This document shows positions 6,857 to 9,799 of a DNA stretch of 10,185 nt, in pieces. The DNA comes from CBDUXP01 sp965371225 [NCBI: uncultured bacterium] (GTDB lineage: Bacteria > Abyssobacteria > SURF-5 > CBDUXP01). Made by a program: the position numbers and the translations under genes. The DNA is taken from positions 1 to 10,185 of the forward strand of contig CBDUXP010000099.1 of the NCBI GenBank assembly GCA_965371225.1. Direction: 5' to 3'. Numbering within the stretch: the stretch's first letter is position 1; each line of letters starts with the position of its first letter. The notes under the pieces were generated by a model that did no database searches, was not told the origin of the DNA, and was given only the letters and a program-made list of their open reading frames with translations.

Positions 6857-6953
6857 AACCACCAAGACACCACGGACACCGAGAGGCTGATACGCCGCCC
6901 TCGCGCAATGACCGGGGGTGTCTTTCCTTCGTGTCCTTCGTGCCTTGGTGGTT
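6857..6953. repeat. Long imperfect inverted repeat (dispersed CACCAAGACAC-type element)
   Basis: The left arm at 6857-6880 starts AACCACCAAGACACC. The right arm at 6930-6953 ends CGTGCCTTGGTGGTT. Read as complements, they match at 20 of 24 positions, enclosing a 49-nt centre. The element lies 6 nt after the aroA stop codon in a non-coding gap. Its arms are of a kind I recognise from many GC-rich and environmental genomes, where it recurs between genes and yields spurious short ORFs. No transposase or target-site duplication is visible. As RNA it would form a long hairpin after aroA and might act as a transcript end or stabiliser, which is inference. Confidence 0.8.
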
Positions 6954-7455: not shown

Positions 7456-7486
7456 GCCACCCGCGGCACCTGTCGCCGCGGGTGGC
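7456..7486 (+). terminator. Perfect 11-bp stem after ridA, possible terminator
   Basis: GCCACCCGCGG (7456-7466) and CCGCGGGTGGC (7476-7486) are exact complements around a 9-nt loop, starting 8 nt after the ridA stop. The stem is stable and well placed to end the ridA transcript, but it is followed by GGTTGACAGG rather than a T-tract, so it would be a U-less terminator or a processing stem. It ends 2 nt before the -35 box of the next promoter, so an operator role at the DNA level is an alternative. Confidence 0.5.
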
Positions 7487-7488
7487 GG

Positions 7489-7518
7489 TTGACAGGGTCT
7501 CGGGCGCTGGCCTAGACT
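7489..7518 (+). promoter_or_regulatory. btuB: Sigma70-type promoter for the cobalamin riboswitch operon
   Basis: A perfect TTGACA (7489-7494) and TAGACT (7513-7518) are separated by 18 nt. Transcription would start about 7525, a few bases before the first helix of the riboswitch. The -10 hexamer and flanking GCCTAGACT closely match GCTAGACT in the tRNA-Val promoter at 2511-2518. Confidence 0.75.
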
Positions 7519-7530
7519 CCGAGTCGAATA

Positions 7531-7665
7531 GCCACTTCACCCGTGGCGGGAACGCGTGGGAAGGCGGTGTAAGTCCGCCACTGTCGCGCAGCGGTAACCG
7601 GAACCGTTTCCGGAAGTCCGAAACCACGCCCCGCCCGACCTGACTCTTTCGCGTCATAAGGAGTC
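7531..7665 (+). ncRNA. Cobalamin riboswitch with SD-sequestering hairpin
   Basis: The RNA leader of the receptor gene carries the cobalamin aptamer hallmarks. GGCGGG (7545-7550) plus GCGTGG (7554-7559) pair with CCACGC (7624-7629) plus CCCGCC (7630-7635), forming a 12-bp closing helix with an AAC bulge. GGGAA precedes the helix GGCGG/CCGCC (7563-7567/7575-7579) with loop TGTAAGT, the usual 'CGGTGTAAGTCCG' signature. It is followed by CACTGTCGCGCAGCGGTAAC and a CCGGAA/TTCCGG hairpin (7598-7613). The B12 box is AGTCCGAAACCACGCC (7615-7630). Immediately downstream, GACTC (7642-7646) pairs with GAGTC (7661-7665) and covers half of the Shine-Dalgarno AAGGAG (7658-7663) of a short ORF. This suggests translational control: bound adenosyl- or hydroxocobalamin would close the hairpin and lower uptake-gene expression. 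I could not identify a clear loop-loop kissing partner. Confidence 0.9.
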
Positions 7666-7669
7666 CGTC

Positions 7670-7702
7670 ATGGCCGGCATCTACTTCTTCCTGCTCCTCT
7701 AA
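7670..7702 (+). CDS. Decapeptide micro-ORF between riboswitch and receptor gene
   Basis: ATG 7670 opens a ten-codon ORF, MAGIYFFLLL, ending at TAA 7700-7702. It has a strong Shine-Dalgarno AAGGAG (7658-7663) at a 6-nt spacing, as good as any start in the window. This ribosome site is the one sequestered by the hairpin directly after the cobalamin aptamer. It is in the same frame as the receptor gene (111 nt between the two ATGs) with no other stop between. The peptide is hydrophobic and could be a leader peptide coupling riboswitch state to the downstream gene, or a tiny membrane peptide. I know of no described family. Chance occurrence is possible, but the SD, spacing and position argue for translation. 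Confidence 0.55.
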   Translation: MAGIYFFLLL

Positions 7703-7713
7703 GTCCTTCGTCA

Positions 7714-7752
7714 CCCAGGTCCGTCTGTCTGGGCGCCACATGTGGTGCGCCC
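7714..7752 (+). promoter_or_regulatory. Two overlapping hairpins before the receptor start
   Basis: CCCAG (7714-7718) can pair with CTGGG (7729-7733). The same GGG instead begins GGGCGC (7731-7736), which pairs with GCGCCC (7747-7752) around CACATGTGGT. The two folds share bases and cannot both form. The second stem ends 15 nt before the receptor Shine-Dalgarno. No T-tract follows, so a terminator is unlikely; a role in coupling or in blocking ribosome entry is inference. Confidence 0.35.
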
Positions 7753-7780
7753 GGCGTCAATCGAGCCAAGGAGGCGAAGG

Positions 7781-9799
7781 ATGCGTTGTCGTACTGTGTC
7801 TGGATATCTGTTGTTCACGGTCGCGGTCGCCGCATGGTCCGGCCCGGCCCGGGCCCAAACGTCGGCGGACGACCCGCCGGCACCCGACATCGAGTTGGAC
7901 GCCGCCGCGTCGAACGGCGATGACACGGAGCCGGCGTTCGTACTGGATCCCACCATCGTCAGCGCCACGCCCGTCCCCCAAGCCCAGTCCACGCTGGGCA
8001 GCAGCGTCACGGTCATCGGCGCGGCGGAGTTGGCGGAGCGGGGCATCACGGACGTGCGGGATGCGCTCGAAATCGCGCCCGGCACCCACGTGGGCCAGAC
8101 CGGGACCCGCGGCAGTCTCGCGTCCCTGTTCCTGCGCGGTGGCGAGAGCGATTTTACGCTGGTACTGATCGACGGCGTGCCCGTCAATCAGGTGGGCGGC
8201 TTCTTCGATTTCGGCCGGCTTACGCTGGATGACGTGGAGCGCATCGAGGTGTTGCGCGGTGCGCAGAGCGCGCTCTACGGGTCCGAAGCCATGAGCGGCG
8301 TCGTCAACATCATCACGAAACGCGGCGACGGGCCACCCACGTGGAGCTGGGATGCGGCCGCCGGCACGCGCCACACGTACCGCACCACCGGTACATTCAG
8401 CGGCGGCTCCGACCGGGGCCACTACCGCGTGACCGTGTCCCGGCACAGCACCACGAACCGGCAGCGGCTGAAGGATGACGCGTTCCGCCAGTACACGCTG
8501 AGCGGGCGTGCGGGCTTTCGGCCGGTGGACGACGTGGAGCTGGAGGGGACGTTCCGGGTGGAGAACGTGGATCGTGAGAATCCGGGCCAGCACAGCCGCC
8601 CGGGCTTCATCGAGGACCGCAACGATCATACGGACGACGATCAGGTCCTGCTCGGCGGCACAGTCACGCACCACCTGCGCGACTGGTGGGAACATCGCGT
8701 GCAGGTGTCTTTCTTCCGGGAAGAGTTGGCGAATGACGATCCGTCGCAGGAGAATCCGCCGGGCGCGCTCGCGTCCACCGACTTCATCACCACGGAATCG
8801 TTGGTGAAAACCGAACGCACCCTGGTGGATTACCGGCATTCGGTCACGCTACTCGAGGACCACATCGCCACGGTCGGCGTTTCGTACGAGCAGGAGTGGG
8901 CCCGGATAACGCGCCTGGCGCCCCCGTTCCCCGCGGGGTTCGGGAATTCGCACCTCTCGCGGACCATCGAGAACCGTGCCGTGTACGCCCAGCTGCAAGC
9001 CACGTTCCTGGACGACACCCTGCACCTGCAGGCCGGCGTGCGGCATGACAACAACAGCTTCTTCGATGAAGAGACTTCGCCGCGCGTGGCCGGGTCGTAT
9101 CGCGTCGAGCAGACCGACTCCCGGGTGCACGCCAGTTGGGGCCGGGGTATCAAGACGCCGAACCTCTTCGAGATGCTGAGCCCCGGCGGCCTGAACCTGG
9201 AGGCCGAGGAGACGGACCACTGGGACGTGGGCGTCGAACAACGCCTGTGGGACGACCGGCTGGTGCTGGACGTGACGTACTTCGCGCAGGACATCGACAA
9301 CATCGTGGAGTTCCAGTCCGTGTTCCCGTTCGGTGTCGACAACGGCGGTGAAGTGGAGACCAAGGGTATCGAGGTCAGCGGCACCGCGCGCCTGCGGCCG
9401 GACCTGCTCGCCTACCTGGCGTACACGTACCTGGAAACCGAGCGGAAGAGCCCGCCCCGGTTCCCCCGCGTGGGCAACGGCCAATCCCTCGACCGCCGTC
9501 CCAAACATCAGGCGACGGCGCGGGTCACCTACCGGCCGGACCCGTGGTCCGCGACCGTGGACGTGCGGTACGTGGGCGATTCGAACGAACCGGATGCGTT
9601 CGATCCGTTCACGTTCGCGTCGCTGCCGGTGGAGAATGAGGACTACTGGCTCGTGAACCTGAGCGGTGCGTACCAGGTCAATGACCATCTGGAGCTGTAC
9701 AGCGTGCTCACCAACCTCCTCAACGACAACTACGAGAACGTGTTCGGCTTCGAGGCGAACGGGCTGACCGCGTTGTTCGGCGCCCGGGGAAGCTTCTAG
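7781..9799 (+). CDS. btuB: BtuB-like TonB-dependent outer-membrane receptor (cobalamin)
   Basis: A 672-residue outer-membrane receptor that would import cobalamin or a related corrinoid into the periplasm using TonB energy. A signal peptide (residues 1-25, cleavage after ARA) is followed by an acidic linker and a TonB box around PTIVSAT (57-63). The plug domain (about 69-183) shows SVTVIGAAEL, LFLRGGESDFTLVLIDGVPVN, VERIEVLRGAQSALYGSEAMSGVVNIIT, the usual BtuB/FepA pattern. The rest is a 22-strand beta-barrel typical of the family, with the conserved GIKTPNLFE and ETDHWDVGVEQ segments and the terminal aromatic (…ARGSF) needed for outer-membrane assembly. The start ATG 7781 has AAGGAGG (7768-7774) 6 nt upstream and begins the signal peptide; an in-frame GTG at 7742 would put 13 basic residues in front. 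Cobalamin as ligand is inferred mainly from the riboswitch. The TonB-like gene follows after 3 nt. Confidence 0.9.
   Translation: MRCRTVSGYLLFTVAVAAWSGPARAQTSADDPPAPDIELDAAASNGDDTEPAFVLDPTIVSATPVPQAQSTLGSSVTVIGAAELAERGITDVRDALEIAPGTHVGQTGTRGSLASLFLRGGESDFTLVLIDGVPVNQVGGFFDFGRLTLDDVERIEVLRGAQSALYGSEAMSGVVNIITKRGDGPPTWSWDAAAGTRHTYRTTGTFSGGSDRGHYRVTVSRHSTTNRQRLKDDAFRQYTLSGRAGFRPVDDVELEGTFRVENVDRENPGQHSRPGFIEDRNDHTDDDQVLLGGTVTHHLRDWWEHRVQVSFFREELANDDPSQENPPGALASTDFITTESLVKTERTLVDYRHSVTLLEDHIATVGVSYEQEWARITRLAPPFPAGFGNSHLSRTIENRAVYAQLQATFLDDTLHLQAGVRHDNNSFFDEETSPRVAGSYRVEQTDSRVHASWGRGIKTPNLFEMLSPGGLNLEAEETDHWDVGVEQRLWDDRLVLDVTYFAQDIDNIVEFQSVFPFGVDNGGEVETKGIEVSGTARLRPDLLAYLAYTYLETERKSPPRFPRVGNGQSLDRRPKHQATARVTYRPDPWSATVDVRYVGDSNEPDAFDPFTFASLPVENEDYWLVNLSGAYQVNDHLELYSVLTNLLNDNYENVFGFEANGLTALFGARGSF

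Follow-up and report, generated by a model that had tools for sequence, protein, structure and literature searches.

The locus described here raises the question of which start codon a cobalamin riboswitch masks when a very short open reading frame lies between it and the gene for a BtuB-like receptor, and of how the receptor gene would then follow the switch. In ordinary translational B12 riboswitches, the Shine–Dalgarno sequence (SD) of the target gene occupies the position of the first hairpin after the aptamer. In the window, by which we mean the whole stretch of 10,185 bases that was analyzed, this position is instead followed by an upstream open reading frame (uORF) of ten codons, and btuB begins further downstream. 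The features of the locus are collected in Table 1.

Table 1. Features of the btuB leader in the window, with uORFs of other leaders that share a sequence block
Feature	Position	Strand	Basis
Terminator-like hairpin of 12 bp, 3' of the ridA stop and 5' of the promoter	7456..7486	+	fold
Sigma-70-like promoter TTGACA-18-TAGACT	7489..7518	+	10/12 matches; mean 0.0 in 50 shuffles
Cobalamin riboswitch aptamer, compact, with short P6 side	7528..7639	+	RF00174
L5 loop CGCGC, candidate for a kissing loop with hairpin loop 7650-7654	7585..7589	+	4-bp complementarity, short, weak
P13-like expression-platform hairpin GACTCTTT/AAGGAGTC, 8 bp, loop 7650-7657	7642..7665	+	predicted fold
uORF SD AAGGAG, fully within the hairpin	7658..7663	+	sequence and predicted pairing
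uORF MAGIYFFLLL with TAA stop, pyrimidine-rich 3' half	7670..7702	+	ORF, SD
Second lock, 5' arm GTCCTTCGTC, beginning one base after the uORF stop	7703..7712	+	10 bp with 7773-7782
btuB SD AAGGAGG	7768..7774	+	sequence; serves ATG 7781
Second lock, 3' arm GGCGAAGGAT: SD end, spacer, AU of the btuB start codon	7773..7782	+	predicted pairing
btuB-like TonB-dependent receptor gene, 672 aa	7781..9799	+	ORF and Pfam
uORFs with AAAACGCCATYCT	L111:1345-1479, L114:1342-1476, L110:3367-3509 (minus), L132:1362-1503		

The leader runs from the ridA stop codon through the hairpin at 7456-7486, the promoter, the riboswitch, the first hairpin, the uORF and the second hairpin to btuB. The stem at 7456-7486 is without a T run, and a terminator scan gave no match at this hairpin. 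The RF00174 match, at 7528-7646, scored 36.7 bits, above the gathering score of 31.5. Both receptor domains are present in the product of 7781..9799 (Pfam TonB_dep_Rec_b-barrel, 1.7e-51; Plug, 1.9e-25), and the N-terminus at ATG 7781 resembles a signal peptide; from the riboswitch, we infer B12 as the cargo of this receptor. The idea that a nonsense mutation had interrupted a BtuB with a longer N-terminus was rejected on account of btuB's own SD and its signal-peptide-like start. Elsewhere in the window, the gap between aroA and ridA (6857-6953) holds an inverted repeat, AACCACCAAG ... CTTGGTGGTT enclosing CCTTCGTGTCCTTCGTGCC, which looks like a dispersed intergenic element.

In the predicted RNA, GACTCTTT at 7642-7649 pairs with AAGGAGTC at 7658-7665 over 8 bp, and the entire AAGGAG at 7658-7663 sits within this first hairpin. 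The preliminary description had stated that the hairpin covers part of this SD; masking is borne out, and the 8 bp span the whole of it. The SD lies 6 nt ahead of ATG 7670, and the frame that opens there reads MAGIYFFLLL and ends at TAA 7700-7702, as had been described. The start masked by the riboswitch hairpin is thus, as had been claimed, that of the 10-codon ORF, whose AAGGAG lies inside 7642-7665. A tertiary contact between aptamer and hairpin is conceivable through CGCG 7585-7588 in L5, which is complementary, over 4 bp only, to CGCG 7650-7653 in the first-hairpin loop.

The start signal of the uORF is of a kind that is rare in this DNA. On both strands of the window, the only ATGs with a 6-nt SD match at a distance of 5-9 nt are those of thrS (2766), ridA (7056), btuB (7781) and the uORF (7670), and a single GTG has such an SD, at 2770, where it opens a 7-codon frame beside the thrS start. 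Among 20,000 dinucleotide shuffles of 7640-7760, 9 yielded an ATG preceded by an SD match of this length and spacing. The SD of btuB lies 110 nt 3' of the uORF SD and 65 nt after the uORF stop.

The distance between the uORF and btuB is bridged by a second hairpin at 7703-7782, in which a predicted 10-bp helix, 7703-7712/7773-7782, connects the sequence right behind the uORF stop with the region of the btuB start. Both the first and the second hairpin appear in the MFE fold of 7528-7800. The preliminary description had placed the receptor's SD outside the hairpin; this is correct for the first hairpin, but the SD is not free, since it falls within the second. All shuffle tests of the second helix were post hoc, made after the helix had been noticed; in them, a helix of at least 10 bp at this position arose in 2/1000, 8/1000 or 19/1000 spacer shuffles, depending on the segments compared. 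The duplex energy is unremarkable, being reached in 45/1000 and 300/1000 shuffles for two segment choices, and we count this against coupling through the helix. In tests that were likewise post hoc, 9/1000 shuffles reached the leader MFE of -42.9, and 48/1000 had a btuB start that was no more accessible. This accessibility, 0.21, is the second lowest of ten window positions (range 0.07-0.46), four of which (cysteine desulfurase, DUF2203, thrS and the TPR gene) lie 2-6 nt off the start codon. With a ribosome parked at the uORF stop, the modelled accessibility of the btuB start rose from 0.20 to 0.41. A further pairing is available to this region: TCTTTCGC (7645-7652), which comprises 5'-arm and loop bases of the first hairpin, can pair over 8 bp with GCGAAGGA (7774-7781), and this alternative duplex may be a second possible mask of the btuB start.

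The aptamer match, the two hairpins as predicted RNA, the two SD–start pairs and their geometry suggest a two-lock translational relay at this locus, from riboswitch to uORF to btuB, which we consider rather probable. As the first lock, bound B12 would stabilize the P13-like hairpin over the whole SD of the 10-codon uORF; as the second, the btuB spacer and start codon would be held in a helix with the bases right after the uORF stop. In the absence of B12, ribosomes would load on the uORF, and a ribosome terminating at TAA 7700-7702 would sit on the 5' arm, so that the helix would open. btuB would then be initiated at its own SD, either by a new ribosome or by the terminating one after scanning. 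With B12, the uORF would be silent, the second lock would remain shut and both starts would be closed; the untranslated C-rich leader may in addition become exposed to Rho. The relay assigns no role to the peptide itself.

Exposure to Rho could also be the principal mechanism, the uORF serving mainly to protect the transcript, so that with B12 transcription would end before btuB and the second hairpin would be incidental. The 78 nt from 7624 are C-rich and G-poor (41% C, 19% G), an excess reached by 1.3% of plus-strand 78-nt windows, and Rho is active on the Mbox leader of M. tuberculosis, in which the switch governs a small uORF according to the available part of that report (PMC12810186). 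However, a helix running from the uORF stop into the btuB start is not needed for Rho protection alone, and an ORF of 33 nt shields little RNA. We regard Rho protection as an unlikely main role of the uORF.

The layout of the two starts admits another explanation, in which the riboswitch SD is a distant standby site for btuB and the uORF start codon itself goes unused. The uORF and btuB share a frame, with 111 nt between their ATGs, and the Sinorhizobium metA SAM-II leader likewise combines a riboswitch SD and AUG1 with an AUG2 in frame, in the portion of its report at hand (PMC9373788). There, however, AUG2 is preceded merely by SD-like GAG and GGA, whereas btuB has a strong AAGGAGG; moreover, the two starts of the window are set apart by an 80-nt hairpin and by an in-frame TAA. 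A standby site is accordingly improbable in our judgment, and the relay remains the preferred reading of the locus.

Relatives of the window locus were sought in genome, plasmid and viral collections, and a homologue of its leader was obtained from none of them, which we weigh against the relay. The BtuB search of genome contigs gave a single relative, from a Desulfobacca MAG, at 30% identity. The window ThrS reached at most 55% identity over full-length matches in 79 Desulfobacterota genomes, and 56% for one fragment, so that the window probably stems from a different phylum. BtuB matches on plasmids came from 1806 records, all below 60% identity, with 27.9-33.0% among the 20 listed. Scans of viral contigs gave no relative and no pattern match, and the leader search on plasmids gave, among the matches examined, chance or unrelated ones only. 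A Cupriavidus plasmid match was rejected as lying inside a 617-codon ORF and a Pannonibacter plasmid match as lying inside an annotated permease gene; on a Candidatus Manganitrophus plasmid, the gene right after the riboswitch encodes a short hypothetical protein.

We then assembled btuB homologues and their leaders from Desulfobacterota, the phylum of the one distant BtuB match. A btuB match was found in 51 of 297 sampled genomes, and 27 of the best 30 loci had a riboswitch above the gathering score. A uORF was recorded when an ATG with an SD match of at least 5 nt lay within 60 nt of the aptamer end and opened an ORF of at most 60 codons, with btuB beyond. The order of riboswitch, SD, short ORF and btuB was present in 4 of the 27 (L107, L110, L111 and L114). 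In an enlarged sample, 7 of 45 riboswitch-bearing leaders showed riboswitch, SD and uORF in this order, with btuB at its own start (6 of 36 from a list printed by script and 1 of 9, L132, read by eye); as this sample is enriched in relatives of positives, 7/45 is not a frequency. Three further leaders, L097, L101 and L103, become candidates if 4-nt SDs are allowed. Among 75 riboswitch loci with any target gene (73 from Desulfobacterota and 2 from one Manganitrophus plasmid), a like criterion gave two candidates, L047 and L039, the latter being the G091 locus (L083) again. The btuB leaders of Desulfobacterota also include direct forms, in which the riboswitch SD stands immediately at btuB.

Two side observations came from the same leaders. 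Tandem cobalamin riboswitch matches occur upstream of btuB in L087, L089, L096, L105, L106, L108, L123, L135 and L138. In L103 (G066, ~1453-1500), the riboswitch-controlled ATG opens MGKSFFVTLACL and a stop follows, while in the relative L104 the BtuB signal peptide reads through without a break; the interruption in L103 is a frameshift that is either genuine or due to misassembly.

Pairing of the uORF end with the btuB SD region is found in four of the seven uORF leaders, in one of them as a broken duplex, and not in the other three. The last uORF codons and UGA pair with the btuB SD region over 14 bp in G198 (MERGNNKTPFL) and 16 bp in G171 (MGRGNEKTPFL), each matched in 0/1000 shuffles, and a 10-bp pairing in G255 (MRKGKKKTPSLWG) was matched in 4/1000. 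In G469 (MKESEKKTPS), there is only an interrupted duplex, matched in 14/1000 shuffles by energy and 608/1000 by helix length. These values refer to segments that were widened after the first, narrower ones had cut off part of the four helices; by helix length, the narrower segments had given 7/1000 for G198, 2/1000 for G171, 142/1000 for G255 and 340/1000 for G469. We count against the relay that the MFE fold of G255 favours another hairpin and that in G091, G129 and G044, the last with an 8-codon uORF and without a masking helix, pairing of the uORF end with the btuB start is not beyond chance.

A ribosome parked in the model raised btuB accessibility from 0.42 to 0.63 in G198 and from 0.39 to 0.74 in G171. 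The rise was slight in G255, G469 and G044, accessibility was unchanged in G129, and in G091 it fell from 0.62 to 0.32. In G198 (L111) and G171 (L114), plain reinitiation would also be possible, because the uORF stop overlaps a btuB-frame ATG (ATGA) about 20 codons before the SD-bearing start; by analogy with ppe2 of Mycobacterium tuberculosis, this may be a second coupling route in these two leaders.

In a four-sequence alignment of the G198-type helix, 83.9% of cells were paired, compared with 30-59% when the arms were slid; a shuffled-partner control with the four sequences was equally good, and there was no two-sided change, so that the alignment gave no covariation signal; this, too, weighs against the relay. 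A 17-base motif of these leaders, AAAACGCCATYCTWATG, was found in 3 of 395 genomes and only at known leaders, with one match for the reversed control; G469, which lies outside that sample, also has it. The idea of a DNA motif spread over many loci was rejected on these counts. The block AAAACGCCATYCT is common to four uORFs of two classes and lies partly beyond the btuB-masking helix.

Taken together, the helix from uORF stop to btuB start and the seven leaders of the same order make coupling of the uORF to btuB the best reading of the locus. The earlier proposal that B12 switches a leader peptide and that the receptor follows is retained in this form.

The same survey bears on the possibility that the uORF is the leftover of an insertion between a riboswitch-controlled start and btuB, which would leave btuB largely or wholly outside B12 control. 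Among close Desulfobacterota relatives, uORF and direct forms occur side by side, in a manner that resembles gain or loss of a segment: in G056 and G018, whose btuB shares 87 and 88% identity with the G198 gene, the riboswitch SD is directly at btuB. Moreover, G091 and G129 (L083 and L084) have uORFs of 31 and 30 codons, followed by a spacer of 208 nt that lacks a masking helix. On the other hand, the window retains a perfect hairpin over a perfect SD, and the extra segment in G198, G171 and G255 holds a beyond-chance helix onto the btuB SD region. An inert leftover is thus a quite improbable account of the window uORF. As separate observations, the uORFs of G091 and G129 differ by a frame-keeping 3-nt deletion, and their spacers plus 40 nt fold at -122 (L083) and -111 kcal/mol (L084).

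The preliminary description had also offered a tiny functional membrane peptide under B12 control, a suggestion that we consider very unlikely because peptides differ between lineages: 7 of the 10 residues are hydrophobic or aromatic (IYFFLLL), but ten residues are too short for a membrane span, the uORF peptides of other lineages are unrelated to MAGIYFFLLL and not hydrophobic, and the window peptide pattern had no exact match in viral contigs, the sole collection scanned. The FFLLL codons of the window form a pyrimidine run able to pair with either SD (6-7 bp). In the group of uORFs sharing KTP, the codons AAA ACG CCA are identical in 4/4 genomes, and since synonymous sites are identical too, this points to a constraint on the RNA rather than on the peptide; part of the block falls outside the helix.

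On a wider scale, a riboswitch, a mini-ORF and a stop-proximal helix could together make up an expression platform that recurs in nature. This natural ribo-attenuator would have evolved separately before B12-receptor genes of two or more phyla, and would turn ligand binding into ribosome termination as its output signal. We put this forward tentatively, as a generalization that falls somewhat short of an even chance. In annotating translational riboswitches, one usually takes the start that is masked to belong to the gene itself; should a mini-ORF often be the direct target, then some targets and platforms of B12 (and other) riboswitches have been misread.

Both halves of such an arrangement have precedents: the B12-riboswitch/uORF relay is already known in nature from ppe2, and the masked-RBS hairpin is already known as a device from synthetic ribo-attenuators. 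In M. tuberculosis ppe2, the SD that is hidden by a compact B12 riboswitch belongs to a uORF (uPPE2), and ppe2 needs translation of this uORF, as stated in the available sections of Kipkorir 2024 (PMC11260477). The label of an undescribed expression platform given in the preliminary description was therefore too strong. In a literature search for B12 riboswitches with uORFs, the matches listed comprised, judging by titles and abstract openings, only studies of M. tuberculosis and one review of its cobamides. As in ppe2, the riboswitch hairpin of the window masks the SD of a uORF and not that of the main gene, here by predicted pairing. In contrast, the accessible part of the ppe2 report describes an AUGA stop/start overlap, no obvious ppe2 SD and mainly termination–reinitiation (PMC11260477), whereas btuB in the window has its own SD 65 nt past the uORF stop, and a helix beginning at this stop masks it. 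The Desulfobacterota leaders G198 and G171 combine both, with an ATGA overlap as in ppe2 and a helix.

Other natural systems share single elements of the proposed relay. In the Sinorhizobium meliloti metA SAM-II leader, the riboswitch SD is required and the start AUG2 lies 74 nt downstream; the ligand differs, AUG2 is without a strong SD, and the part of the report available describes no separate uORF with a stop (PMC9373788). The Mbox of M. tuberculosis pe20 (rv1805A) is likewise a riboswitch with a translational platform that directly controls a small uORF, but in the sections at hand its ligand is Mg2+, its uORF is highly conserved and Rho termination has been demonstrated (PMC12810186). 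The iraD leader ORF (PMC5574718) and mgtQ (PMC8092293) resemble the window in that translation of a short uORF is coupled to a gene with a sequestered SD or start region. They differ in that iraD is under CsrA control and mgtQ works through ribosome-destabilizing residues, and in the text available for each, neither has a riboswitch upstream of the uORF.

The closest likeness to the second lock is an engineered one. Synthetic ribo-attenuators have been built on addA and btuB riboswitches, and a stop-proximal hairpin works on the E. coli btuB riboswitch, as the available text of that report indicates (PMC5496857). As is proposed for the window, a riboswitch there drives a short upstream ORF whose ribosomes open a hairpin hiding the RBS of the gene; the synthetic version, as far as the same text goes, is designed, with a leader ORF of 150 bp and a TAATG junction after the hairpin (PMC5496857). 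The window arrangement is natural, has ten codons and places the stop 5' of the hairpin, with helix opening as modelled. A relay of this kind would let the switch set gain and noise apart from ligand affinity, as synthetic ribo-attenuators exploit, and if natural versions are real, evolution arrived at the same device as the synthetic designs.
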